In this document: positions 6,002-63,972 of the stretch, piece after piece | Position numbering within the stretch: position 1 is the stretch's first letter | How the letters are laid out: the number at the start of each line of letters is the position of its first letter | Assembly (NCBI GenBank): GCA_026120185.1 | Contig: JANUWF010001617.1 | Span: forward strand, 124,001-188,000 | Length of the DNA stretch: 64,000 bases | From: Voacanga thouarsii | Taxonomy: Eukaryota; Streptophyta; Magnoliopsida; Gentianales; Apocynaceae | Reading direction: 5' to 3' | Program-made: the position numbers and the translations under genes | Notes under the pieces: model-generated | Database searches by the model: none | Seen by the model: only the letters and a program-made list of their open reading frames with translations | What the model was told of the DNA's origin: nothing

Positions 6002-6361
6002 TGTTATGAATTATTGGAATCTCCATTAATTAGTGGAAGCTCCACTAATTATGGATTTATGTGAATTATTAGAGAAGATTTTTATGGATATCCACCATTT
6101 AGTGGAGACACCACTAATTGAGATTAGTGAAAGATGATGTATGGCATGATGTATTCTACTAATTAGAGCTCTATAAATAGAGTTATCCTCGAAGTTTGTA
6201 ATACATTATCATTATCATTTTGTGAAAGAAAGATTAGAAAAAGAATTGTGAGAGAAAGAAAGAGAGAAGTTTGAAGAGAAATTCTTATGCAAATAATAGT
6301 TAAAATTTTCTTAGTGTGTAGTGTGTAGATTTTATTCTAACACTACCCTAATTTTATAACA
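6002..6361 (+). repeat. 5' LTR of the copia element
   Basis: TGTTATGAAT to TTATAACA, 360 bp. It contains TATAAATAG near 6173, a good candidate for the U3 TATA box. The sequence after it, CGTTATTAGCACGAG at 6362, sits at the primer-binding position but is not the usual plant tRNA-iMet site TGGTATCAGAGC. Confidence 0.92.
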
Positions 6362-6453
6362 CGTTATTAGCACGAGTCTCTACCGTTACAAAAGTCAGAA
6401 GACTAAGCACGAGTTTCTGCCGTTACCAAAGTCAGAAGACAGGTACGCATTTA

Positions 6454-7196
6454 TTGATCTATATGGCTAACCTCGCTAAACTCGAATTTGTAACCCTTGA
6501 TATTTCTGGAAAAAATTATATGTCATGGGTTCTCGATGCAGAAATGCATCTAAATGCTGAAGGCCTTAGTGAAACTATTCAAGCAAATAATAGTGCATCT
6601 GCACAACACAAGGCTAAAGCTTTGATTTTTATTCGTCGTCATCTCGATGAAAATTTGAAAATGGAATATCTTATTGAAAAAGATTCATATGTCCTATAGG
6701 TAAATTTAAAAGAAAGATTTGACCACCTGAAGATGGTCGTACTACCCACTGCACGGTATGAATGGTTGCACCTGAGGTTGCAAGATTTTAAAACCGTGAA
6801 TGAATATAGCTCCGCAATGTATAAAATTACATCTCAGTTAAAATTATGCGGAGAAAAAGTGACTGATGAAGATATGTTGGAGAAGACATTCTCCACCTTT
6901 CATGTCTCGAATATTGTCCTGCAGCAACAATATCGAGAAAAATGGTATACAAAATTTACAGATTTAATTATTGCCCTCCTCATTGCAGAGAAAAATAATG
7001 AGTTATTATTGAGAAATCATGAAACCAGACCAACTGGCTCAACAGCACTCCCAAAAGTGAATGCTGTTGGCTCCAGCAAAAGCTATCGTTATAGTCATAG
7101 TTGTGGCAGTGGCCGTGGTTATGGTCATGAACACACTCGATATTTCCCTTATCACAGAGAAATACTGGCCACTGAAGTGGAACAGAAAAGATAATA
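6454..7196 (+). pseudogene. copia gag (UBN2-type capsid), broken
   Basis: A gag-like frame runs from the ATG at 6454 and is cut by TAG at 6697. It resumes in the same frame (VNLKERFDHLK) and ends near 7196. It shows the copia gag features LDISGKNYMSWVLDAEMHL and, further on, YSSAMYKITSQLKLCG. These are typical of the UBN2 capsid domain, followed by a Gly/His/Arg-rich tail. The CCHC zinc knuckle that should follow is absent because homology stops where the RKD segment starts. One in-frame stop and the missing nucleocapsid make this non-functional. Confidence 0.85.
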
Positions 7197-7297
7197 AAGA
7201 AAAAAGATATTTCCATTAATAATAAGTATCACATCTTTTATTCATATCACTAGTGTTCATATGAACTTGAGGATACATGCTTATAGTTGCTCTTTTG

Positions 7298-8592
7298 TTA
7301 TTGAGCTAACAAATTTAAGATGAAGGTTTGTAATTGTTCTTTTTCAATATTTACATTAGAGGAAGACAAACAATTAGTAATTATGGATTTCAGCTCCTCT
7401 TTTTCGGCATCCTCCTGATTTTCTTTCCCCTTTGAGCCAGCATCGAGACTAACAGCAGAATTAGCCGTAAAATTACTGCGAAATGAGTCTTGGGATTTTA
7501 TGATCCCCTTAAGTTTATTATAATTAAATTTCTTATTATATTTGGCCTTGAAGCATGCTTGTCTCAATTTCTGTGTTTGGTCCTCTAACTGCGTATTAGG
7601 ACTTTCTTCCACCAACTGTTTTTCACATTCCAGTATCGCAATAGCTTCTTTCAACTTCTTCTCAGCCATATGTCCTCCTTCTTCTTTATTTTGCATTTCC
7701 TGTAAATCGAAGTGATATCATCGGTTATTTACTTATAAATCTTTCATAGTTTCATACTTGCAAATTATAAGTATGTATGAGAGAGAACCTGAACATTCTT
7801 GATTATGGTCTCCAAGCTCACCAACTTCCTGTGAGGCCATCGATGAATTCCTAACTCCCTACATCTTTTCTTGAGACGGGTTATGCCAATATTCAGTTCT
7901 TTGGCTGCGCTCTTGATTGATAGATAAAAGTACTGCGAAATTGTTTCTCTTGATAGTGTCTGTGAGTTATTGCCCTTTTTCTCTCTCTGCCTCTTAATCA
8001 TCTTCTTCTCCCCAGGAATTTTGTCTGCAATAATATCTTGAACTTCGATATTATGCATTTCATGAGTACTTACTCCGACTTCGTTGCCAAGACCACTCAT
8101 TATTTTTCCTAGAAAAAGAAAATAATATCAGTAAAGGTAATACCATTCAAAATCCATGTTTAAATATATAATAACCTGGAATCATATTTTGGCTTTGTTC
8201 AAAATCCATTAGAGAGTAGAAAGGATCATGCACAAGTATATCCTCATTCAAATGAATAGCATCAAGAGGAACAGTATCAAAAGCAGTCTCTTGTAGGGGC
8301 AGATCAACTTGGTCCAAAGCAATATGTTCAAAACTTCCACTGATTTACATAAAAAACAAACCAAAAGAGAGTTTAATTTCATTATCAAGCACACTAAAAA
8401 CAAATGGAAGCCCTCAAAGGTATCTCACCTAAAATTAGGAGGAAGCGGTTGGTTTGGAAAGGAAAACATATCAAAATCTTCTGCGTTCGAATTAGGCAGA
8501 AGCGGTTGGTTTGGAAAGGAAAATACATCAAAATCTGCTACAGAAATTGAGTCAAAATTTGACCATGTCTCAAATGAATTACGAGTCTCCAT
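7298..8592 (-). CDS. RKD: RKD transcription factor (RWP-RK domain), intact
   Basis: Four exons on the minus strand join in frame at GT-AG borders: 8592-8429, 8339-8176, 8108-7789 and 7699-7298. They total 1050 nt and give 349 residues with no internal stop. The start is the ATG at 8592 (METRNSF); the only upstream in-frame ATG would read through a TA microsatellite. Residues 1-109 are acidic and contain a duplicated motif (FDVFSFPNQPL, FDMFSFPNQPL). The RWP-RK DNA-binding domain is at about 161-216, with RWPHRK at 199-204, preceded by a Lys/Arg-rich stretch. The C-terminal 133 residues are charged and may form a coiled coil. RKD proteins are nuclear regulators of egg-cell and embryogenic identity. 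The gene lies antisense between gag and pol of a copia element. Whether it is expressed cannot be judged from sequence; the intact frame and splice sites speak for function. Confidence 0.9.
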
Positions 8593-8653
8593 ATCTGCTT
8601 TGTGATTTTTGTTTTTGATATTTACTAATGACTGATGATTGAGATATATATCG

Positions 8654-8698
<45 letters not shown>

Positions 8699-8874
8699 AG
8701 GAATAAGAAGAGGTAGATGGTAGGTAGAGGGTCGGAGGAGAAGAAAAGACAAGAGAGGAAGAGGAAAAGTCGGTACCGGGAAGAGTGAAAAAAAAAAGGA
8801 GATATTTTTTTTGGCATTTCCTGCTTGTCATCATTTTCTTATATTTCTTTTCTTATTCTCTTGTGAAATCATTA
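8593..8874 (-). promoter_or_regulatory. RKD 5' region with TA microsatellite
   Basis: Only about 280 bp separate the RKD start codon from sequence that is clearly copia pol. A TA tract at 8658-8693 lies about 65-100 bp upstream of the ATG, inside the leader or core promoter. Any more distal promoter elements must lie in retrotransposon DNA. Confidence 0.5.
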
Positions 8875-10790
8875 TTCCCAAAATTAGGGGGAGAACAGAA
8901 ACAGTACAAGAAAGATCGTGATTAGACAACATCATTAAATTATCTTGATCCGCATATAAGCGCGTGTGAACTTGAAGTTCAAAAGATAATTCATTTGTAA
9001 AGCATTGCAAATCAAATGCCAGACGCTTTTGTTGACTCTAGAAGAGTAACAAAATCGCATATTCCAACTATAAATGCTTCTATTCGAATTGAAATTCCAG
9101 CAGAACAAAATATTATACCTATAGCTGCTGAGTCAAAAACACGCCAGAAGCGTGGCCGACCTTTTGGTTCTAAAGATAAAAATCCTCGAAAGAAAAAAGG
9201 ATTAAATGATCCAGAAGATCATATTGAAGAAAAGAATGACAAAGACCAAGAGAGAACTGATGACAAAGAACTAGAAGTTGATGAAAGTAACACTGAAATT
9301 TCTATCAATTATACCACTTCCGGTAGAAGTTGGAATCGGATAGAAACTGTTATTGATAATATATTTGCATAAAATATATCTCTTGATGTTACACAGGATA
9401 ATGATGATCCTGAACCAATATCAGTTGATGAATATCGGCATAGAAAAGATTGGCTGCAATGGAAAGATGCGATTCAATCGGAGTTAAATGCACTGACAAA
9501 ACGTAAAGTCTTCGGACCTACAGTCCGAACACCAGAAGGTGTAAAACATGTTGGCTACAAATGGATATTTGTGCGAAAGCAACAATGGAAAGAGTGAAAT
9601 CGTTCGATATAAAGCGCGATTAGTAGCCCAAGATTTTTCACAAAGACCAGGTATTGATTATGATGAAACTTATTCTCCTGTTGTTAATGCTATTACACTC
9701 CGATATCTTATCAGTTTGGCAGTACATGAAAAGATAGATATGCGCCTATTAGATGTTATCACTGCTTACTTGTATGAAAATTTAGAAAATGATATTTACA
9801 TAAAAATCCCCAAAGGATTTCATATGCCAGAAGCATATACACATTATCCTCGTGAAAATTACTCCATCAAATTGCGGAAATCATTATATGGCCTGAAGCC
9901 ATCTGGGCGCATGTGGTTCAATTATCTTAGTGAATATTGATTGAAAGCGAGATTTAAAATGACCAGGTATGTCCATGCGTTTTTATTAAGAAATCTGGTT
10001 CTAAATTTGTGATATTAGCTATATATGTTAATGATTTTAATCTTATTGGAACTCTTGAAGAGCTCCAAGAAACAATTGATTATTCGACATCAAGGATGGT
10101 CGTAAAAGTATACTTTGCCTTGGTTTACAAATTGAACATTTGGCAAGTAGAATATTTATTCAACATATACAACAAAAATTCTAAAAAGATTTGACATGGA
10201 CAAAGCACATCCATTGAGTATTCCAATGATCGTCCGGTCCTTTCCGACCTCAAGAAGATGTTGAAGAACTTCTTGGTCCTGAAGTACCATATCTCAGTGC
10301 AATTGGTGTATTGATGTATCTTACTAATAATACACGACTTGATATTGCCTTTGCTGTCAATTTATTAGCAAGATTTAGTTCTTCACCAACATGACGATAT
10401 TGGAATGGAATTGAACAAGTCATTCGATATCTCCAAGCAGCTACTTCTTCAAATTATGCTGAAATTACAGCCATTCATGAAGCAAGTAGAGAATGATTCA
10501 TTATATCCGAGAAAGTTGTGGATTATCATATATCAGAGATATTCAAACTTCTCTTTATAAAGATAATGCAGCTGGCATAAGCATAATTACGAGGAGGATA
10601 TATTAAAGGAGATCGAACATAACATAGGTCACCAAACTCCAGAAGAAAGGTGAAATTGATGTGCTACAAATTCGGTCATATGATAACCTCGCAGACATTT
10701 TCACGAAGACTTTACCGACTGCAACATTTGAGAAGTTGAGATAAAATCGGTATGCGTCGGTTTAAAGATTTAAAGGAATCATCTCATCAG
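8875..10790 (+). pseudogene. copia pol remnant: integrase tail, reverse transcriptase, RNase H
   Basis: Homology begins at 8875 with FPKLGGE, the copia motif after the integrase core. It continues through CELEVQKIIHL (then a stop), a charged linker (RPFGSKDKNPRKKKG), the RT start (DWLQWKDAIQSELNAL), the RT core (YKARLVAQDFSQRPGIDYDETYSPV, given here only as a landmark near 9612) and LYGLKPSGRMWFNYL. The catalytic box reads YVND near 10024 instead of YVDD. RNase H traces (AIHEASRE, GGYIKGDRT, NLADIFTKTLP) follow to about 10750. Stops at 8999, 9370, 9595, 9938 and many later, plus frameshifts, rule out a working polyprotein. Confidence 0.88.
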
Positions 10791-10913
10791 GGGGAGTAAC
10801 AAACATACATATAGAATAGTGTACTCTTTTTCCTTCACTAGATTTTTTTTCCCACTGGGTTTTTATCTAGTAAGGTTTTAACGAGGCATATTCTTTATGT
10901 AATGGATGGACAT

Positions 10914-10924
10914 CCAAGGAGGAG
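10914..10924 (+). other. Polypurine tract before the 3' LTR
   Basis: AAGGAGGAG directly precedes TGTTATG of the 3' LTR, the position and composition expected for the plus-strand primer. Confidence 0.7.
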
Positions 10925-11289
10925 TGTTATGAATTATTGGAATCTCCATTAATTAGTGGAGGCTCCACTAATTATGGATTTATGTGAATTATTAGAGAAG
11001 ATTTTTATGGATGTCCACCATTTAGTGGAGACACCACTAATTGAGATTAGTGAAAGATGATGTATGGCATGATGTATTCTACTAATTAGAGCTCTATAAA
11101 TAGAGCTATCCTCGAAACTTGTAATACACCATCATTTTGTGAAAGAAAGATTAGTGAAAGAAATACTAGAAAAAGAATTGTGAGAGAAAGAAAGAGAGAA
11201 GTTTGAAGAGAAATTCTTATACAAAGAATAGTTAGAATTTTCTTAGTGTGTAGTGTATAGATTTTATTCTAACACTACCATAATTTTAT

Positions 11290-11293
<4 letters not shown>
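10925..11293 (+). repeat. 3' LTR of the copia element
   Basis: Second copy of the LTR, 369 bp. It differs from the 5' copy by about ten point changes, a deletion in the ATCATT tract and an added GTGAAAGAAATACTA segment. It is followed by TATAT and a TA tract to 11326. Confidence 0.92.
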
Positions 11294-11330
<37 letters not shown>

Positions 11331-11554: not shown

Positions 11555-12166
11555 ACAATACATAAAATAAAAATAAACATACAAAAAAAACTTTTTAAAC
11601 TAATTTATCAGCCTTCACGAACAATAGCAGCCTGCGCAAACCAAATCCACCTAAATCCATGATCAGTAATTTAGAATACTCTGTGAATGAAGGGCCCAAA
11701 CCAATTGTTGGATAAAAGATTAACAACAAACACAATAAAAATAACAAGTATAAGGAAAAAAATATAGAATACATGCTAAAGAGATTTGGAGCTTAAGAAA
11801 GAAAGTCAAAGAAGATAAGTTTTGTGGGTTGAGACAAAAAAAGGGGATGAGATCACCAAAAATAGTGGGAAAGAAAGGATCTTTGGCCAAGATCCGAGCT
11901 TCGGCAGAGATCACCAAAAATAGTGGGAAAGAAATGATCTTTGGCCAAGATCCGAGCTCCGGCAGAAGCCGGAGCCTAGACCTGGCCAAAGAAAGGCAGA
12001 CGGAGATCAATAAAACGAAGACTCGAGGGAAAAATGGGTTAGAGAGAAAAAGTGAAAAAAGAGGATAATTTTCAAACTACCTTCACGGGACTACATAACT
12101 AACTTAGTAATACATCTTAAAAGTAAAATATGTTCGTCACTCTTGAACTTTTATTAATTTTAATTT
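11555..12166. repeat. Dispersed repeat block A, copy 1
   Basis: About 610 bp that recur at 14597-15193. The block contains an internal tandem duplication of about 60 bp around GCCAAGATCCGAGCT (near 11890 and 11946), which creates an open frame at 11829-12068 with no known domain. On the minus strand it reads GPSP-like hydrophobic frames also without recognised domain. Its family is unknown to me. Confidence 0.75.
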
Positions 12167-13084
12167 GGGCAAAATATGTCAACTACCCTTAAACTTTCAT
12201 AAATTTTGATTTCTACTATTGAATTTTAAAATACTTGATTTTAGCACTCGAACTTTTAAAATACATAAAAAATAACCCATTCAATAATAAAAGCTCAGGT
12301 ACAATACAAAATCTCTAGATTTTAACTCTCATTCTCCCATTTTTTATTTCTAAAATATTATTTTTCAACTTTAATCTCGCTCTCTTCTCTTCGAATTAAC
12401 TTTTTCATTAATTAAAATTATTAAATGCTCACGAAAGTTCATCACATGATTATGATCTATTTTATAGGTATTTTCATTTACTCAATTCTCACAATGTGGT
12501 GTCATCCTTCTAATTATTATAAAGTAACTTCTATATATGACAGGAAAAGACTATTGCGACTTGCGCGTCTCTCACTTTTCTTTTTAGATTTTTTTTTTTT
12601 ATAATTCACTTATACTTTCAAATTTATTCTTCCTTATTGTAGAGATGCCAAGAAAATTACTATTCGTCAAGAATTGAATCGATTTTTTTCTTCTTCTTCG
12701 TCTTTATATCTTACTTTTGATTATTAAAGGGTAAAATGTGTTATTTTTGTTATATGGTTAGATTCGAAAAAGTGCGAAAGAGTAATCTCAAGATTATTGA
12801 GTCGAATAAAATGTTTGAAATTAGATTTTATAATTGTTGTTGATAAATGAAGAAATTCGAAGAAAAAGGAGTGAGATTAAAGTTGAAGAATAATATTTTA
12901 GAAATTAAAAATAGGGGAATGCGAGCTAAAATTTGGTAATTTTGTGTTGTATTTGAGTTTTTATTGTTAAAAGGGTTATTTTTTAGGTATTTTAAAAGTT
13001 CGGGGGCTAAAATCATACATTTTAAAATTTGAGGGTGAAAATCAAAATTGATGAAAGTTTAAGGGTGACAAATATATTTTTCCC
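12167..13084. mobile_element. Mutator-type MITE with long terminal inverted repeats
   Basis: The ends GGGCAAAATATGTCAACT and (reverse complement) GGGAAAAATATATTTGTC begin inverted arms of about 240 bp: left 12167-12410, right 12835-13084. Both arms carry CCCTTAAACTTTCAT and, further in, the same CTTTAATCTCxCTC segment. A 9-bp direct repeat TTTTAATTT flanks it (12158-12166 and 13085-13093), the size made by Mutator-like transposases. The copy at 15180-15205 keeps the uninterrupted target. No coding capacity. Confidence 0.8.
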
Positions 13085-13504
13085 TTTTAATTTTTAATTT
13101 TTGAATTTTAAAATGTGAAAATTTAACTATTGAACATTTAAAACATTTAAAAAATAATATTTCTAACAATTGAAAATGTTAAGTGTTTACGGAAGTTTAT
13201 CACATGATTCCAACAACTCTCACAATGTGGTGCTAAATTTTCTTCTAATTCTTATAAAATAACTTCAATATATGATAGAAAAAATATTATTGCAACTTGC
13301 GTGTCTCTTGTTTCTCCTTTAAGATCTTTTTTTTTTTCTCTTAATAATTCATTTCTCCTTACAAATATACTCTTCCTTGTTATAGAAATGCGAATAAAAT
13401 TGCTATCCACTAATAATTGAATTTGAGTTTCTTTGTTATCTATCAATAATTGAATTTGATTTCTTTCTTTTTTCCCCCCCTTATTTTTATATCTAAAAAT
13501 ATAA
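13085..13504. repeat. Older, truncated relative of the same MITE family
   Basis: Continues the sequence interrupted by the 12167-13084 element and matches 15186-15600 closely. Its interior (CTCACAATGTGGTG near 13212, CAACTTGCGTGTCT near 13292) also matches the interior of the younger element, so it is an older copy of one family. Confidence 0.65.
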
Positions 13505-14596: not shown

Positions 14597-15193
14597 TGCA
14601 ATACATAAAATAAAGATAAACAAAAAAAAAAAAACTTTTTTAACTACTTTATCAGCATTCACGAATAACAGCGGCTTACGCAAATCAAATCCACCTAGAT
14701 CCATGATCAATAATTTAGAAGACTCTGTGGGGGAAGGGCCCAAACCAATTGTTGGGTAAAAGATTAACAACAAACACAATGAGAAGAACAAGTATAAGAA
14801 AGAAAACATAGAATACATGCTAAAGAGATGTGGAGCTGAAAAAGAAAGTCAAAGAAGATAAGTTTTGTGGTTTGAGACAAAAAAAGGGATGAGATCATAA
14901 AAAATAGTGGGAAAGAAAGGATCTTTGGCCAAGATTCGAGCTTCGGCAGAGATCACCAAAAATAATGGGAAAGAAATGATCTTTGGCCAAGATCCGAACT
15001 TCGACAGAAGCCGGAGCCTAAATTTGGCCAAAAAAAGGCAAACGGCGCTCAATAAAACGAAAACTGGAGGGAAAAGAAAAAGTGGGAAAAGAGGATAATT
15101 TTCAAACTACCTTCACGGGACTACACAGCTAACTTATTAATACATCTTAAAGTAAAATATATCCGTCATTTTTGAACTTTTATTAATTTTAAT
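14597..15193. repeat. Dispersed repeat block A, copy 2
   Basis: Second copy of the 11555-12166 block, with the same internal tandem duplication and the same order of flanking sequence. It runs without interruption into the older MITE copy at 15150-15985, giving the pre-insertion state of the site used at 12166/13085. Confidence 0.75.
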
Positions 15194-15985
15194 TTTTAAT
15201 TTTTGAATTTTAAAATGTGTAATTTTAACTATTGAACATTTAAAACATTTAAAAAATAATATTTCTATCAATTGAAAATATTAAGTGCTTACAGAAGTTT
15301 ATCACGTGATTCCAACAACTCTCACAATGTGGTGCCAAGTTTTCTTCTAATTCTTATAAAATAAGTTCAATATATGGCAGAAAAAAAATTATTGCAACTT
15401 GCGTGTATCTTATTTCTCCTTTAAGATCTTTTTTTTTTTCTTAATAATTCATTTCTCCTTACAAATATACTCTTCCTTTTTATAGAAACGCCAATAAAAT
15501 TGCTATCCACTAATAATTGAATTTGAGTTTCTTTGTTATCTATCGATAATTGAATTTGATTTCTTTCTCTCTTTTTTTTCTTATTTTTATATCTAAGTTT
15601 TGTTTATTAAAAGATTAAATCTATAATTTTTATTATATAGTTGGATTTGAAGATGCGCAAATGAGTATTCATAATATTATTGAGCCGCATAAGAGGTATA
15701 GAGTTAGATCTTGAAATTGCTGTTGATAATATGAAAAAATTTGAAGAGAAGATAGCGAGATAAAAATTAAAAAATAATATTTTAGAAATAGAAAATAGAG
15801 GGATGAGGGTTAAAATTTAGTGACTTTGTATTGTACTTAAAATTTTATTATTGGAATAACTATTTTTTTTAGGTATCTTAAATATTCGAGGATTAGAATC
15901 TCACATTTTAAAGTTCAAGAGTAGAAATCAAAATTTGAAAAAATTTAGGAGTAACTTATATATTTTGCTCTACATCTTACTAGAT
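15150..15985. mobile_element. Older MITE copy of the same foldback family
   Basis: The two ends are diverged inverted repeats (GAACTTTTATTAATTTT near 15175 against the AAATTTGAAAAAATTTAGG region near 15930). The interior matches that of 12167-13084. Ends cannot be set exactly. Confidence 0.5.
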
Positions 15986-18230: not shown

Positions 18231-20740
18231 CCATTGAAAATCAATATGCACGCAGCACACTTTAGCTCTCCTTCTTCAAATACAAAATATTTACGTAAAC
18301 TCACTATTTATATTTATATATACTACATATTGAATCTTTTAAATTGATATAAATTTTTAATGTATACAATTTATTAAAGTCAAATAGGTCTTACCAGCAC
18401 TCATTTTAATATCTAAGCAGGATTTAGAGGAGTAGAAGATAGTGTCCTTCCCCTCAAAATTTTTGAAATTTTGATTTTTTTTTAATTAAAATTTTGTAAA
18501 AAAAAAATTAAAAATTTTATTTTTATTTTCTTATCTTTTTTTATTTCCGACTCTAAATTTTTAATTTTATCCCTATAGATAAGATTTTAATTCAGTACCA
18601 ATCATCTATCTTGGTTTAAGTATAAAATAATCATGAGTCCAACTTTATATTATATGACATCTATTTTATATGTGGTCCACAACTCTACGATTCATGTAAG
18701 AATTTTTCCTCTAAAAAATCGCAATATCTGAAAATGACCCTTTTAGAAATATCAACTTCTCCACAAGAGAAAATGGTGCACTGGTCCTAACCCGGTTAAT
18801 GGTGACAGAACAAGATGTTATTGTCTCCTAGCATTTGGGCTTCATCTTTGATTGAAAGAAAATTGTGTAGTGGAGAGTCCTCCACCCCCCCCGCAACAAA
18901 GATAAAGAATAAGGAAATTCTAATTACAGACAGCTAAATGGAGTATGAAAACAAAGACTGAGGTGTATATAAAGAGCCGCCGTCAATCATACTGCATGTA
19001 GTAAATAGCGAAGAGATAGAATTTGAATCTCTAACAGTAATATTAAGTATTTTTTATCAGATAATAAATTATGTATAAAATTAATATTTTCATCTATAAT
19101 ACATAAAAAATTTACATGATTATTTGTTTTAAACAAAGTACTACCTACACTATTGCATTAGAAGGGGAAAAAAAATTGGTCTACCCAATTGATAACTATC
19201 AAATATATTAATATTAAATTTAAAATCTATCGATACAATAATAAATTTATTTATAATCAGACTAACTATATTATTTAACGTCAAATTTAAAAATATTTCT
19301 TTCCAATTTATATCTCAATAGTTTCTCCTATTCTATGATAGTATAAAGATCTATTTAATAAATTAATTAAATAAGTGTTTATTTTAATAAACATATTTAA
19401 TAACAAATAATATTAAATATGTAATTAATTAAATATATTTAATAATAAATTTTATTATCACTTATAAATTTTAAATAAAATAAAAGTTACTTAAGTATGA
19501 AATCTAAGTATTTTAAATAATTATCTAATTATTAATATTTAAAATAAATTATAATTAATTTAAATTTTAAAGCCTTATCTTCAAACTTTAATTTAAAAAA
19601 TTAATTTAAATATTTTAAAATTTCACTCCTCGAATTTTAATTTTATGGAAGGAGTCCTAACTAACTAACTTTGTCCTTTTCTGTCCGAGTCTCCCAGGGG
19701 AGGGTTGGCGTGCTTGGGTTGGAGGCTGTTGGAGCGCTGAAGAGGCTTATAATCTCTACCTACCAAACTTCCCAACACTCTGGTTGTGGTTAATCTATTC
19801 ATTCGCATTTATATAATCTCCAACAAGCACATTTATAATGCGATCCTCCTGAAAGATACATCCCAGTTCATGGGACCGCACATTCTTGTATTGTTTTACA
19901 GTGCAATGTGCAGCAGTTCTGCAGCCAGCCACATTTCAATTTTCCCAATCAAGAAATTTTATACACCACTCATGTACGCATCCATTTCCTGGATGACTAA
20001 AGTGATCAAACGCATGTCCTCCAAAGGCCCATATCATAATCATGTCAAGCCTCATGTTGACTTGAGTGGTGATTTTATGGGTTGTCTCTTGAGTACTAGT
20101 GGGCATGTGTGGAATCCCGTTTTCTACTTCATTCATTGTGTAGCTCACTGTTCATGGTCTGTTCATGGGTTGCGTGGGATCCCATTAGGTATGAATTTCT
20201 TTACTGGGCTAAACATAGGCCAAATTTATCTGTTCTAAGCTTCTAATTTAGAGGATTTGCCACACTTTTTGTTCAGCGTCTCTTTTTCTACTCTTTTAAG
20301 GATAGCATTCTTTTCTTGTGCTTTTTCTGTCTTCTTTATTCACATGGAATGGACTTCATATCACCCCAGGTTGCTAATGCATCAATGAGTGATTCTTGGT
20401 TGCAGCTGAAGTTGAGTATACGCAGAAACTAAATTCTAAATCATGTAAAGTTGCTGTCTTTTCTTTGAATTAGATGTGTATATGAGTTTCACATGTCTTT
20501 GTTGATTTGGGCTGCAACACTTTTCGAGTAGTTGAAAATTATTGCTCAGAAATATTATTATGAGCTTTTTGCTCTTTGTTAGTTGTTGATTTATCATGTG
20601 CCTAATTGAGTGGCTGGATAGTAATCATGGGTTTCATATATGACATGCTAAAAGTTCCCATATAATGGAGAAGAGATTTTGAAGTGAAGACTCTTGATTC
20701 TGAAGTTAAGTGTTCATCTTTTTCTGCTTAACAAATAACA
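18231..20740. other. Spacer and probable 5' leader of the GLR gene
   Basis: 18231-19640 is AT-rich spacer without a gene. 19640-20740 is less AT-rich and probably contains the promoter and an untranslated exon, since an acceptor AACAG lies at 20737-20741 just before the GLR start. The 150-codon frame at 19786-20238 shows no domain and overlaps this leader. Confidence 0.45.
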
Positions 20741-20759
20741 GGTTCTTGAAATAAGGCTT

Positions 20760-24765
<4,006 letters not shown>

Positions 24766-29100: not shown

Positions 29101-32100
29101 AAGGTGTTGCATCCCATGATACAAACATAAATTGGGCACCTAATTATCATTTAGCATGCCCATAAACATGACAAGTTCAGATATTGGCATTACTTAGTGT
29201 ATTATTGTTGACATATTCCCTGAGTAATGGGATCCTTGTGTAGGACGGTTTAGTCTCAACAAAGACAAGCTTGATGACAAAAGCGGAGAATTCTGAAGCA
29301 CCGATCCCCTGAGTTGTGGTCTTTGTTCTATTTGATTTTCTTCCTGTTCTTCATCATATATGGTCTATTTAATCATAGTGTTCTACTAACTAATCATTCC
29401 CACATCCTGTGACAAGATTTCTAGACAAGATAACCTACTCTCTCCCTGTATCTATGTGTTACCACACATGTTTAATAAGTGATCACAAATGTGCCAGACA
29501 TTTATCAATTCAGCAAACAAATACAGTGGTTTAAGCATATCCCATAAACAGTGACATTTTAAAACATCAATTGCTAGGCTCATCTGCAAATTGGAATCAT
29601 AAGAATGACCTGACACCATAATCTGCTGGAAGGATATACAAAAAGTTCATTAGAGCAATATACTAACCTCATCAGTTCTAATAAAATCGGTGAAGGATAG
29701 CCATTCAGCATCCACAACTTAGTATCCTGCATATAAGCTTTAAGAGAATCCAACTTGATTCTACACTCTGTCATAATCTCAGAATCCAAGTTCTTGCTAT
29801 GAGTCGAGTTCTCATAAAAGTCTGAACACATAGCAATAAGATCATTCAAATTGCAAATACAGCGCTCAAGTGAAAGATACACAAAGTCTTGGTCTTGCTC
29901 CACTCCATACCAACGGACAATATTTTGGTGGCGATCAGAGGCAATAAGATTTTGGATTTCTTTGAAGGCAATATCATGGTGGGCCCTAACAAGACGCTTC
30001 ACAGCAACCAGTCGACCTTCATAAATTCCCTCAAGGACAACAGTACCGTTACTTCCTTTAGCAATCTCCTTGTTAGAGACGAATAATTTACCAATTGTGC
30101 GACCATCAACTCTAGCAGTTGTTTGATTGAGGTTCAATAAGTTACTGCTGTTATCCTTGTGCACAGATGTAACCTCACCATCTGAAAGTGGGTCTTGATC
30201 CATTTTCTCAGCACTGCTCCCACTCTTTCCAGATTTCCGAGATCTTTTCTTTTTGGAAGGTACAGATCTAGGAGCTCTACCACCAAAAAGTTCAACCCAC
30301 TCTAACATTCTAGCCACTGGGCCATGAAGGTAATTAATAAATGCTACAATAATAATAGATGAAAAGATCAAAGGGAAAGCAATTCTTACAAACACCATGC
30401 TTTGTCCATTGCTATAATTATTTTTTACGTCTCGCACCTGAGACCCGGAATCTCCCATCACTGATGACAAAGGAAGCACTAGTTCACTAGCATTCCTGTC
30501 ATGAGAATCTGTTATTTCACTTCCATTGCTTGGGGATGGAAGAAACTCTAGAACTTTATAAATATTTGGTTGTGAAGGTAGAACATCATTCGATCTTGAT
30601 GATGGAAGCAACATCTCTTGATGGTGAACTACAGGAAGTCCACTAGGCCTAGAGAAAGGTTCCAACATGTCCTGGTTGTGAAAGCGGTAGACAAGAGCTC
30701 TAGATTGACAAGGCAATGGCATATTAAAACCAGGTTCAGAAGCCCGTGAATCCAGAAGAGTCCCATCAAATGAATTTTCTATTTCTTGACATAGAAAAGC
30801 AGCCCCAATTTCAGCCACTGTCATATTCCAGAGAACTTTATTTGAGTCTGGGGCAAAAGATGTCAATAAATAATCAGTCCTTGTAATGTAAAGGGGTAGC
30901 TCATCATTCTTCATTTTTGCTCTAGACAGTCCCTGTTCTTCAACAGTGGTGTTATGGAGAATATTATTCTCGTTGTTGTTCTGAGTTGCTGTTGGAGGAC
31001 CAGACGTGTTATATGCGTAGATTAGCCTCCCAGTCTTGGCATCAACAAGAAAAGCAGTGGATTTTTTAGATCCAAGTACAATTCCTCCATCCTCAGCTAT
31101 CTGTGGTGTAGAACTTATGTACTCTTCAAGGGTCCTCATAAGTTTCTGAAGACAAGAGTATAATACAGAAAACAACATAAACAAGATATGCTAGAACATG
31201 GCATTCAGCAAAATAACTCTCATCATAATAAAGGCAGAAAAGAGTGAGAACTTCATCTAGTGACAACTGTCAACCATCATCACATGTACGTTTACACACC
31301 AGATAGAACATTGGTGGTCTTGACACAGTTTCCAAAACAATTCATATAAATCTTAAAGATATCATGCACAAAAACATACCACTTTACCCAGCCTGTTGTG
31401 AGCATATAATTCCCAGTCATCCCCACAATCAATGTAGTAATCGCTTCCCGTACCAGATGCATTTTCATTATCATTCTCATAGTTGACAGAAGCCTGATAT
31501 GAAGAGTAAATTGTTGGTCCAGAATCAAATGACCAGAGTGGTTTCATCGAATCCAGGTCCAGTAAATGCACTGTGCCATCCAAAGCAGCAACTAGCGCGG
31601 TTTCAGGTTCCCTGATTGGAGGGGGAAAAAGGATTTAAAAAGGAAGTAGGCCATGTAAATTGAATCGCTGAAAACAACCATGATGTGAGCAAAGAATCAA
31701 TATAGTCACATCAATACAAATAATATATCAATCTGAAACTTTCAGTCACTTCAGGGGCATTCAGGTCAGGCTTCTGCCAGATTTTGCGCATAAATATTCT
31801 GTAGCTTGTGGACATGGGACAACATGAATTAAATCTCACACTAGTTCGTACCACAGAAAAGGAACAAGAATGAATTCCTGTTCCAAGTTGTAATTGAACT
31901 CCAATTTCAGTTGAAAATTACCACTTTTTTCAAACTAATGCCATTTTGGCACTTTGAAGCACCAAATGTTGTCATTGTGTGATAATAATTAAAAAATAAT
32001 TTATTTTTTTTTAAAAAAAAAGCTGTGTACAGCACCCTTTTTCAGTTTTAGAGCCGAGAAATTTCCTATTTCTTTTTACACCTGGGGAAAAGTTCACCAC

Positions 32101-55232: not shown

Positions 55233-57368
55233 ATGTCACATCAAGATCAAATAAGTGAAAATTCAGTCAAACTCATGGAAGAAACTACTTCAACCCTAAG
55301 TGATAGTAGCAATCCAATGTCGTATCCTATGCAGCAAGTGATTATAGCAGTTAATGAGAGTATTGAACCTGAAGTTGGAGAATCTCAACAGCCAAAAAGC
55401 CAAAGTGATATTGGACCTATTGGAAGGCAAAAATAAGCAGTGTGGAGTCATTTTAGGCAAAAATGATAAATGGTAAACAAAAAGTTGAATGTATTTATTA
55501 CTCTCAAGAGCTTATTGCTGGTGCAAAAAATGGAACAAGGCATTTAAATGATCACATGAAATCATGCAAAAAGAGAAAGCAACAAGACATTAGATAAAGT
55601 TTTTTAGCAGGGAAGGTAACTGATCCTTCTTCAAATGTTACACAAATGTCGACTTATGTTTTTTGCCAAGAAGTTGCAAGGAGAGATCTTGCTGAGATGG
55701 TAGATATCCATGAATATCCGTTGTCTATGGTAGATCATTTTGGATTTAGAAAATATTCAAACTCTCTGCAACCTTTGTTCAAGATGATCTCAAGAAATAT
55801 TTTGAAGAAAGATATCTTAAAAAAATTTTATGATGAGAAAAAAAAGATAATGGCTTTATTGAACAAAAATCGTGGGAGGATTGCTGTCACTTGACTTGTG
55901 GACTGCTAATCACCAAAACAAGTCTTATATGGTTATCACTGCTCATTTTGTGGATAATGCTTGGCAATTGCAACATAGAATTTTGAGGTATTTTTTTGTC
56001 TTAACTTTTCTTCTTGAATTTGATTGTTTACCATAACGTAAAGCTAATTAGTTAATACTTACACATTTGCTCTTTTTCTTTTTTTATGTTATTGAAAGGT
56101 TTATCTATGTGCCATATCCTCATTCAAGTGATATACTTGCTAAAGTTTTAGAAGAAAGCTTATTTGATTGGAACATTGATAGGAAGTTATCTACAATTAC
56201 ACTTGATAACTGTTCTAGTAATGATGCCATTGTTGAAAATCTCTTGGGAAAACTTCAACCCAGCTCTCTTATGTTACGTGGGAGTTTTTTCCATATGCGT
56301 TGTTGTGTACACATCCTAAATTTGATTGTTCAAGATGGATTGTCAGTTATACATGAAGAGATTGAGAAGATTCGTGATAGTGTTAGGTTTTGGACAGCTT
56401 CACCTAAGAGACAACAGAGATTTGAAGAAGCTGCACATCAAATAGGTACTCCATGTTCCAAGAAGCTAATTTTAGATTGCAAAACTAGATGGAATTCAAC
56501 CTTTTGTATGCTTTCGACTGCATTGGCATACAATGATGTGTTTTATAGGCTGAAACATAAGGAGCGTTTATATACTTGCTTGCCAACTGAAGATGATTGG
56601 GTTTTGGCACAAGAGATTTGTGACCATTTGTGCATATTTTATGAGGCCACCTAAATATTTTCAAAAAGCAACTCTCCAACTGTAAATTCGTTTTTCCTAA
56701 CTACTTTTAATATTAGAATGGAGTTAGAGAAATGGCTTGCAAGTGAGAATCAATTGGAAAAAACAATGGCTGAAAAGATGGTTTATAAATTTGATAAATA
56801 TTGGAGAGATGTGCATGGAATTATGGGTGTAGCTGTAGTATTGGATTCACGGTATAAGATGACTTTGGTGGATTATGCTTTTCCACAAATATTTGGTGAT
56901 GATGCTCCTATGAAGATTGAGAAAACCAAGAAGTTTTGTAGTGATTTATTTTTTGAATACAAGTAAAAAAATGAGAAATCTTTAAGTCAATCAACAACTT
57001 CCTTATCAGTTCAATCTCTTCAACATCTTGGAAATCGGTCAACGACAACAGTGGAAAATAGACTTGCTAGATTTTATAATTTTGTAGCACAAAATGAGAA
57101 TAACTTGTAGACAAAGACAGAGCTTGATCAATATTTGGAGGAAAAAGTTTTACCATGGGGCACTGGGGAATTTGATATCTTAAATTGGTGGAAGTCAAAT
57201 GAAACCAAATATCCCATTCTTCACTTGATTGCTAGGGATATATTTTGTATTCCGGTATCCACAGTTGCTTCAGAGTCTGCATTTAGTACTGGAGGAAGAA
57301 TGGTAAACCCACATCCCAGCAAACTTCATCCAGATACACTTGAAGCTTTGATGTGTGTCCAGAATTGA
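55233..57368 (+). pseudogene. hAT-Ac family transposase, decayed
   Basis: From the ATG at 55233 a polar N-terminus leads into a BED zinc-finger remnant (AVWSHFRQK, RHLNDHMKSCKKRK). The RNase-H-like core follows with DNCSSNDAIVENLL, then HMRCCVHILNLIVQDGL and DCKTRWNSTFCML. The C-terminal hAT dimerisation domain is last (LNWWKSNETKYPILHLIARD, ASESAFSTGGRMV) and ends at 57368. Stops at 55435, 55594, 55892, 56652, 56965 and 57109, with frame breaks, prevent a working protein. All major domains are still in order, so the element was autonomous once. Confidence 0.88.
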
Positions 57369-61818: not shown

Positions 61819-63972
61819 ATGCTGCAGAACAAGACGTTCATGCGGAAAACAAAGCAAGGCGGAATCCGAAAAGTCTAGCGGCGACCTTAATCTTCAGATT
61901 TTTTTTTTTTTTTTAAATATTTGTTCTTCTGATGCTCGAAAACTAGGGTTTAAGTTGAAGATAAAACTTTGATAAATTGGTTTGTTTGCAGGTTGTTAGG
62001 GAACACTATTTGAGAGATGATATATACTGCGGAGCTCCGTTTTGCAATGCCTGTGATGTTTCTGGTGCTCGCTTGAGTAGTACGGCGTCCAAAATTATTA
62101 TTGTGGATACCAACGTTGTCCTCAATCAGGTTTATTTAATTATTTTTTTTCCAATCATTTTGAATGTTCGTATTTATTGGACCATGTAAAGACTGAGTTT
62201 TTTTTTTCCCCCTTTTAAATTGTTCTTGATTGCGTTTGTTTTTGGAATGTTCATTAGATTGACTTGCTGGAGAATCCTGCAATTGATGATGTGGTGGTGC
62301 TAGCCGTGGTGTTGGAGGAGGTTAAGAATAAGAATATTGGAATTTATAACAGACTCAGGGCTCTCTGCAGCAGCTCCTCCCGGAAATTCTTTGTCTTCTC
62401 CAATCAACATCACAGGTACTATTTTCAAAGATACTTCTGCGTATTCTCTATGTCGGAGTACTTCGTATAGTGCCTGATAATTATATCTATTGAGCTCTAT
62501 CATGATTCAGTTTAATTGACCTACATTTTGTTTGTCTCCTTAATTGAGTGTTTGTCTGTATATTCTCTTGATGTTTTTATTGATTGTTTACTAGCTCATC
62601 AGACAACCCATGAACAATGCCAAACTATAATTTTCGAAAATGCTCATTGATGGGTTACAACACAGTTACACACTTCAAAATTTGCATATTTCTAGTTTTG
62701 TGATTGCTTTTATGCTTTCATTACTTTTTTCTCTTTTCTGATCATAAATTGATAAGTAAGGTTTTCTGTTTCTTATTATCTCCTTCTCTTGCAAAGGGAT
62801 ACATATGTGAAAGAGATGGCTGGTGAGAGTCCAAATGATCGCAATGATAGAGGTTTGTCATTTTGCATTTCAAAAAATAGTTGTGAACTTTCTTTTTTGG
62901 GTTTAGTAGTGTATTGTTTTCATATTTAGGGTAGAGAATGTTGGAATGCTAATGTATGAGTAGAAATTCAGTGTCTTAGAGCGCATTCTTTTGCAAATAA
63001 TGATTTCTAGACTTAGATTATTGTACCACACAAGAGATAAATGAATCTACACATACACACACAGAAACATTATATTTGAAGTATATTGCTTTACTTATTT
63101 TTCCTTGTGTTGATTAGAATAACTGTTCTTCATGAGTAACTTTTTGCACATTTTTTTACTTTTGACACAAAAAAAAAAAAAAATAAGTTCAGCAATACGG
63201 GTTGCTACCCAATGGTATCAGAATCATCTTGGCACTGCTGTGCGGGTCTTATTGATCACCAATGACAGAGAGAATAAGAGGAAAGCCTTAGAGGAGGGCA
63301 TTTCTGCAGAGACAGGTCCGAAAAGTTATCCTCTTCTTTTGTCTTCGTTGCTTATCTCTTCATTATTAGACATTTGTTTGTGGTACTGTATGCAATTGCT
63401 GCTATTCTTATACTTGTCACATTTCTCTGAACCTTGTTTCTTACTACTATCTATATATTGGAAATGCTACCTTGAGATGACTGAACATGAATGGCTGGCT
63501 ATTTCAGTTGAATCATTTGTGAAATCACTTGATAAGCCGGAATTGCTAGACCTGATTGTTCAGCCTCCGTCTGAGGATGTTAGCATGGAGGATGTAGAGG
63601 ATCTCAGGCCTTCAAAGAGAAAAGTTGTATACCCTGAGGTATACTTCACATATCTTGTTTTATTTATGTAGAAAATTCCTTTATTTCGTCAAACTTTTTA
63701 TGTTTTTACCTGCCATGAACTTGTGGTTCAGCACAAGCCCATGTCAGAGATTACTTCTGGCTTGCGTTGTGGAATTTACCATCAAGGAAAACTTCGTGTA
63801 AACCGTTACAATCCATTTGAAGCATATGTTGGAAGTGAAAGTATTGGCGATGAAATAATCATAAATGGGCGTGCAAATATGAATAGAGCATTTGATGGTG
63901 ACATTGTGGCAGTAGAACTTTTGCCTCAAGAACTGTGGCATGAAGAGAAATCTCTAGTGATAGCTGATGAAG
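61819..63972 (+). CDS. RRP44A: Exosome nuclease RRP44A (DIS3), 5' part (runs off right edge)
   Basis: Seven exons join in frame: 61819-61872, 61992-62129, 62258-62415, 62797-62852, 63193-63315, 63508-63638 and 63732-63972. They give the first 300 residues, and the next donor is at 63973. The start MLQNKTFMRKTKQGG is the expected N-terminus. The CR3 motif has Cys31, Cys36 and Cys39 (YCGAPFCNACD). The PIN endonuclease domain follows with VDTNVV (Asp57) and VLLITNDRENKRKA, then the lead-in to the cold-shock domains (HKPMSEITSGLR, GSESIGDEIIINGR). The RNB exonuclease domain lies beyond the edge. In yeast and plants this is the processive 3'-5' nuclease of the RNA exosome, acting in the nucleus on rRNA precursors and other RNA. 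All splice sites are GT-AG, and the frame is clean. Confidence 0.95.

Follow-up and report, generated by a model that had tools for sequence, protein, structure and literature searches.

The antisense RKD gene found within a copia retrotransposon of Voacanga thouarsii is a standard part of a non-autonomous Ty1/copia repeat family, not a single odd locus. It occupies the place of the element's protease and integrase, and the damage carried by the different copies supports the view that the RKD frame was kept open in the moving lineages while gag and pol decayed. One copy lies in the window, the term used here for the whole stretch of 64,000 nucleotides that was analysed, where the copia LTR element spans positions 6002-11293 and is organized as follows.

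6002..6361, plus strand: 5′ LTR of the copia element, 360 bp, TG...CA
6362..7204, plus strand: leader and gag remnant, terminating at the RKD junction (7203-7207)
7205..8852, minus strand: host-derived segment with the whole RKD gene, about 260 bp 5′ of the ATG and 93 bp past the stop
7298..7699, minus strand: RKD exon 4, with the TAA at its end
7789..8108, minus strand: RKD exon 3, bearing the RWP-RK domain
8176..8339, minus strand: RKD exon 2
8429..8592, minus strand: RKD exon 1, with the ATG at 8592 and a 57-nt in-frame tandem duplication
8658..8693, no strand: (TA)n run inside the captured segment, upstream of the RKD start codon
8853..10924, plus strand: pol remnant (post-integrase region, reverse transcriptase and, by eye, the RNase H end)
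10925..11293, plus strand: 3′ LTR of the copia element, 369 bp
11294..11326, no strand: (TA)n on the right flank of the element; the left flank likewise ends in (TA)n

The two LTRs align over 354 sites, with 12 mismatches (10 of them transitions), 2 indels and a K2P distance of 0.035. Their TG...CA termini are those of a Ty1/copia element, as is the 5-bp target duplication read from other copies, and gag and the RVT_2 reverse transcriptase are likewise of copia type. The gag piece resembles plant copia gag proteins, the best being from Coffea and up to 75% identical, and scores below the cut-off of the gag Pfam profile, while the reverse transcriptase piece matches RVT_2 with E=2.1e-27 (Pfam). 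A plant copia gag is also entered under Corynebacterium sp. MC-13 on a 2.2-kb contig (P0200), most likely as plant contamination, and a search of viral contigs found no copia relative of the reverse transcriptase piece. The integrase expected ahead of the reverse transcriptase is missing from its place, which the RKD occupies in RKD copies, and the element is therefore classed as a non-autonomous derivative. In a preliminary description of this DNA, the gene was said to be bracketed by both LTRs, gag and pol remnants and a TATAT duplication; the LTRs, gag and pol stand, and the duplication has to be withdrawn because (TA)n on both flanks makes it unreadable in the window.

Elsewhere in the window, a GLR3.6-like glutamate receptor gene lies on the plus strand at 20739-24765, its closest relative being an unnamed entry (77% identical), with 76% identity to Coffea and Cinchona. 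A segmental repeat involves 11564-13496 and 14608-15971, in direct (75-98%) and inverted copies. We take 29580-31190, on the minus strand, to be an IRE1-like kinase exon (Pkinase below its cut-off), and 63123-63671 is presumably a PIN-domain exon with the look of RRP44/DIS3. An open frame at 56052-56654, without a Pfam match, is assumed from its look to be a piece of a hAT transposase.

The RKD gene of the window lies on the minus strand and has four exons, three GT-AG introns and a coding sequence of 1050 nt including the stop, giving a protein of 349 amino acids. Its RWP-RK domain (PF02042) is recognized by Pfam with E=1.4e-21; no RWP-RK match was found among solved structures. The in-frame 57-nt tandem duplication occupies 8433-8539, and RKD copies repeatedly differ by indels of 57, 114 and 171 nt. 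The gene model and sister copies confirm that a complete four-exon RKD lies antisense in the copia element at the place of protease and integrase. The reported contrast between an intact RKD frame with intact splice borders and a broken gag and pol was likewise correct: gag has one in-frame TAG at 6697-6699 and, by eye, one frame change near 7150-7172, and pol, also by eye, has at least five stops and at least six frame changes, whereas the RKD has none.

The protein carries an RWP-RK domain and groups with RKD1/2-type proteins, as expected of the RKD subfamily, and departs from the subfamily in the retention of its near-invariant residues. Of 55 such residues, judged over 120 plant RKDs, seven are altered in the window copy; the maximum in any of the 120 homologues is four. 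Only P173S is private to this copy, and the remaining deviant sites are common to 21 to 32 of 32 family copies, so that an explanation of the seven changes by decay of the window copy was rejected. Four of the seven sites are nearly fixed across the element family, with N269K and K271N in 32/32 copies, R273K in all 31 readable copies and L185I in 31/32. These family-wide changes may reflect an altered, weakened or relaxed function rather than a useful one.

The borders of the captured segment were set by comparison with sister copies that retain the integrase region, which places the left junction at about 7203-7207 and the right junction at or before 8852, and moves the right border inwards from the 8874 given earlier. 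About 1.65 kb of host DNA thus stands in place of about 1.7 kb of element DNA with zinc knuckle, protease and integrase. Eight loci were drawn by gag match from 40 scored gag matches. Five of them (L052-L055 and L058) have the RKD at the same junction, and the other three (L056, L057 and L059) have no RKD; the same flanks enclose in them the segment that the RKD replaces. Within the replaced segment, zf-CCHC is matched by Pfam in L059, the sole locus scanned for it, and a CCHC motif is visible by eye in L056 and L057. Pfam places gag_pre-integrs and SH3 above their cut-offs and rve below its own in both L057 and L059; Pol_BBD is above its cut-off in L056 and below it in L057 and L059.

The gag-side break is at the identical place in all 17 loci with gag. 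The RKD begins no more than 9 nt from this break in 13 of the 17, and 130-135 extra nt intervene in the remaining four (L012, L015, L026 and L028). These four show no match to the first 27 nt of the captured segment as it stands in the window, and perhaps carry that segment in an older and longer version. On the pol side, the distance from the RKD is at most 26 nt in 16 of 18 loci and 72-73 nt in L017 and L024. Terminal inverted repeats, as expected of a Pack-type element, were not found at the segment borders, where the only inverted pair is weak and A/T-rich (7175-7203 with 8834-8862, 72%). Its left arm is gag sequence, found too in sister copies that lack the RKD, and capture by a DNA transposon was rejected on these grounds.

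The genome, of 1.346 Gb in 1848 contigs, contains many such elements. A first look with the RWP-RK profile yielded 3618 candidates; the best 150 were scored, and all were above the cut-off and without stops, most commonly in an open frame as long as that of exon 3 in the window (120 aa). We took 20 loci of about 9.8 kb, on 20 different contigs, from rows 1-27 of these matches, and 17 of them showed the complete layout, LTR-gag-[antisense RKD]-pol-LTR. Of the other three, L013 retains the RKD and pol with a single LTR, L009 is an RWP-RK exon of distant relationship and L010 contains part of one element copy next to RKD-like exons. LTR divergence K ranges from 0.0055 to 0.106 over the 17 pairs, nine of which have an exact 5-bp target duplication (flanks compared by eye). 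A search with the RKD segment gave 3354 first-look candidates, and all 40 that were scored are full length (one minus its last base) at 95-100% identity, that is, the window and 39 others, the latter at 95-97% to the window's segment. The gag search gave 4620 candidates, of which 40 were scored; all of these are at 92-100%, the window among them. Copy numbers are lower bounds, as the majority of first-look candidates went unscored.

By their layout, target duplications and RKD-segment copies, these elements show that the host gene moves with the LTRs, as in other LTR-captured genes. The genome search proposed in the preliminary description, for element copies with and without the RKD, found both kinds (with it in 17 of 20 loci; five with and three without among the eight gag-picked loci), so that the capture inside a copia element was rightly called and its confinement to a single locus was not. 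The unreadable target duplication of the window could be taken to favour a unique capture, or a native RKD flanked by two separate copia insertions, but either is practically out of the question. Capture at one locus was rejected because 17 of 20 loci, on different contigs, have the same layout and 39 further full-length RKD segments exist, and two flanking insertions were rejected because, besides this shared layout, exact target duplications enclose the whole hybrid in 9 of 17 LTR pairs.

In a phylogenetic tree, the window RKD is joined first by Catharanthus (100/97), then by Coffea, Cinchona and Oldenlandia (88/92). A larger tree, of the window copy, 12 further family copies, 10 RKDs of other repeats and 23 plant proteins, unites all 23 RKDs borne by repeats in a single clade (100/99), with Catharanthus as its sister (100/99), and places the exons of L009 and L010 far outside it. 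Transfer from an unrelated plant was rejected, as the RKD tree follows plant relationships; the composition of the DNA gave no clear signal. Besides its introns, the captured segment has about 260 bp upstream of the ATG and 93 bp beyond the stop; it therefore did not come from a spliced RKD mRNA. Over 32 copies, the splice borders are largely preserved, with a donor GT in 88/96 and an acceptor AG in 86/96. The earlier view that the introns exclude capture as a spliced cDNA thus holds, and a route through RNA would still be available, since the RKD is antisense to the element RNA and its introns would be left unspliced in that RNA and survive the passage. Two routes of capture can be envisaged, a switch of template to antisense RKD RNA and DNA repair.

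The same RKD lineage is present in other repeats. A search with the Catharanthus RKD gave 6356 candidates, of which the best 123 were scored, with at least 176 matches, and led to ten further loci (L039-L048) in which neither gag nor pol of this element was matched; repeats of at least two kinds have therefore received RKDs of this lineage. Nine of the ten have lost intron 3 and L044 has lost part of it, whereas all ten keep intron 2 in whole or in part, so that a loss of both introns was rejected; the pattern calls for either an exact deletion or an RNA that had been spliced in part. L040, L043 and L048 have pieces of 1.2-2.9 kb in common at 88-90%, with frames that we take, from their look, to be hAT-like (Pfam gives no match), and a frame in L039 is presumably the RNase H of another copia. 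Three further loci (L049-L051) are broken RKD copies that retain intron 3, L050 and L051 being without most of intron 2; L051 also has, near its RKD copy, a frame that resembles a zinc-finger transposase by eye, with no Pfam match. Among the listed matches to the Catharanthus protein, most of them unfetched, no clear intact RKD1-type gene outside repeats was recognized.

The intactness of the window RKD had been read as a sign of selection or of late capture. From the window copy alone, this argument was rejected as weak, since the probability that a neutral frame survives is 0.03-0.42, depending on the indel rate (at half the LTR divergence, 0.0175). The evidence that the frame was kept comes instead from family-wide damage, indels and stops. 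Damage was compared with LTR age in 15 copies from the top of the RWP-RK list (L012, L014 and L016-L028), leaving aside L011 and L015, with long insertions in the RKD, and L013, with no LTR pair. With 4.2% of substitutions assumed to create a stop (a neutral-survival simulation implies about 3.5-4.1%), 13 stops are seen in the RKD against 12.1 expected, and 12 against 8.4 when exon 3 is removed. With lesions counted in the window's frame, gag has 46 stops against 6.1 and pol 39 against 7.6. RKD stops thus match the age of the copies and those of gag and pol exceed it, which indicates that the RKD was nearly intact when the copies landed and that gag and pol were already broken. Frameshifts, at 9 against 12-42 expected in the RKD, 82 against 6-21 in gag and 26 against 8-26 in pol, are less clear than stops. 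Measured against the common depth of the 15 copies, RKD stops fall below expectation, with 13 seen and 29.1 expected (P=0.0007), or 12 and 20.2 without exon 3 (P=0.035).

Variants shared among 32 aligned RKD copies (L010, L011 and L015 omitted) point the same way in part. Among indels present in at least two copies, multiples of three make up 6/10 in coding and 2/13 in noncoding sequence (p=0.039), so that four of the ten shared coding indels break the frame; among single-copy indels, the figures are 11/43 and 10/37 (p=1.0). Six stop sites are common to two or three copies, and 14 of the 32, the window included, are stop-free in the aligned codons. The ratio of nonsynonymous to synonymous changes in the RKD is 2.76, approximately neutral, for single-copy variants and 1.24 for variants in at least four of 27 copies (p=0.0024). 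No significant drop occurs in gag or pol (19 rows each), where the ratios are 4.3 and 4.6 for single-copy variants, 2.9 (p=0.11) and 3.7 (p=0.53) at two or more carriers, and 4.5 and 6.4 at four. The RKD drop persists without codons 151-216 for variants in at least four copies (p=0.028), is marginal if five carriers are required (0.055) and is absent if three (0.30) or two (0.51) suffice. It is gone when only transversions are counted (p=0.77 at four carriers), and nonsynonymous and noncoding variants in the RKD do not differ (p=0.28). On whether the RKD frame evolved neutrally, a check proposed at the outset, stops, shared indels and the ratio of 1.24 against 2.76 therefore speak against neutrality, while the transversion-only and noncoding comparisons show no constraint.

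Taken as a whole, these observations are probably best explained by a sequence of five steps. Host DNA of about 1.65 kb with the whole RKD gene took the place of the zinc-knuckle, protease and integrase DNA, giving rise to a non-autonomous family. The hybrid then spread by retrotransposition, presumably on the proteins of sister elements, of which copies with the integrase region are found in the genome. The introns, which the copies retain, would outlast each round unspliced, owing to their antisense orientation. New copies appear to have kept arising from lineages with an open RKD frame, gag and pol not being kept intact. Finally, the RKD protein would most likely have favoured the copies that made it, for example by promoting an egg or early-embryo state in which insertions are inherited. 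A more specific form of the last step can be put forward only tentatively: the family may have adopted an egg and embryo regulator whose protein, made from the antisense strand, would help the element to be transcribed and its insertions to be inherited, with the functions of gag and pol left to helpers.

Two other explanations of the open frame have to be weighed against this account. In one, somewhat doubtful but still to be taken seriously, the RKD would be a neutral passenger of LTRs and RNA signals mobilized in trans, and its apparent upkeep would be an artefact of sampling by RWP-RK score. The dated copies were indeed sampled by that score, none of the five gag-picked RKD copies, which are undated and carry eight stops in total, is free of lesions, and the absence of constraint in the two comparisons just mentioned would be expected. 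Against it, the exons other than exon 3 also match the number of stops predicted from age, which gag and pol of the same copies do not, the bias towards whole codons appears in shared and not in single-copy indels, and RKD stops lie below the whole-family expectation. The other explanation, which we consider unlikely, places the upkeep with the host: the working RKD of the plant would now be located in a single element copy or in a few of them, and host selection there would have preserved the frame of their descendants. The lack of a clear intact non-repeat RKD1-type gene among the listed matches would fit, and so would the position of the RKD-like exons of L010 and the RWP-RK exon of L009 far from the repeat-borne clade; yet only the best candidates were scored, and a native gene may be absent from the matches listed. 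Moreover, several subfamilies, with RKD segments down to 86% identity, kept the frame, so that several host-used sources would be required. Retrotransposition of a hybrid that probably profited from its RKD protein is the reading we retain.

In the acute transforming retroviruses of vertebrates, a host regulator displaces viral genes and the product is defective and helper-dependent. The family described here resembles them in having a host regulator in place of element genes and in its apparent dependence on helpers, and differs from them in being a copia element with an antisense, intron-bearing gene and in residing in germline copies. In plants, the nearest case is Rider/SUN of tomato, a Rider-mediated 24.7-kb interchromosomal duplication of an IQD gene (PMC4034497; PMC13317346), which, in the portion of the review available, is named as the only experimentally characterized transduced segment in plants (PMC13317346). 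There too, an entire host gene was carried along by a plant retrotransposon, and SUN acts in flowers and fruit; as far as the accessible text goes, that was one event at one locus, whereas the RKD is multicopy, antisense and a replacement of protease and integrase. Bs1 of maize likewise has host gene segments within the body of an LTR element (PMC13317346), but, from the same partial text, these are without full-length frames, in contrast to a whole intron-bearing gene with an open frame in the window copy. The accessible parts of the review and of surveys record many host genes captured by plant LTR elements (PMC13317346, PMC3726574, PMC4034497), including genes inside full-length LTR elements in rice (672), sorghum (1,343) and maize (424) (PMC3726574). 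Those sets, as given in the accessible text, are genome-wide collections of genes between LTRs, whereas the present case concerns one regulator that recurs across many copies of a single element, and the dated damage of the cargo is compared with that of gag and pol.

RKD-type genes altered by inserted DNA are also known from nucellar embryony, in CitRKD1/CitRWP of Citrus and MiRWP of mango. According to the available extracts, a MITE or chloroplast DNA is inserted there in the promoter of the host gene, whereas here the gene itself is borne by the element, and the link to nucellar embryony proposed in the preliminary description is unsupported. No report of an element-borne RKD was found in the literature searched, which takes in few of the subscription journals, none was found that joins RKD, RWP-RK, retrotransposon and copia, and among papers on RWP-RK with LTR retrotransposons none concerns capture by its title or the start of its abstract.

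Gene capture by plant LTR elements is thus already known, mostly, in the accessible parts of these sources, as fragments, single events or genome-wide counts. Here the standard content of a multicopy and apparently helper-dependent element includes the whole gene of a germline-type transcription factor, antisense and with introns. If the RKD protein is made and active, the family would parallel, in plants, the retroviruses that carry oncogenes and would allow a direct test of whether a mobile element manipulates egg and embryo identity. Even if the protein is not made, abundant RKD copies and their antisense RNA could silence or rewire the native RKD genes.
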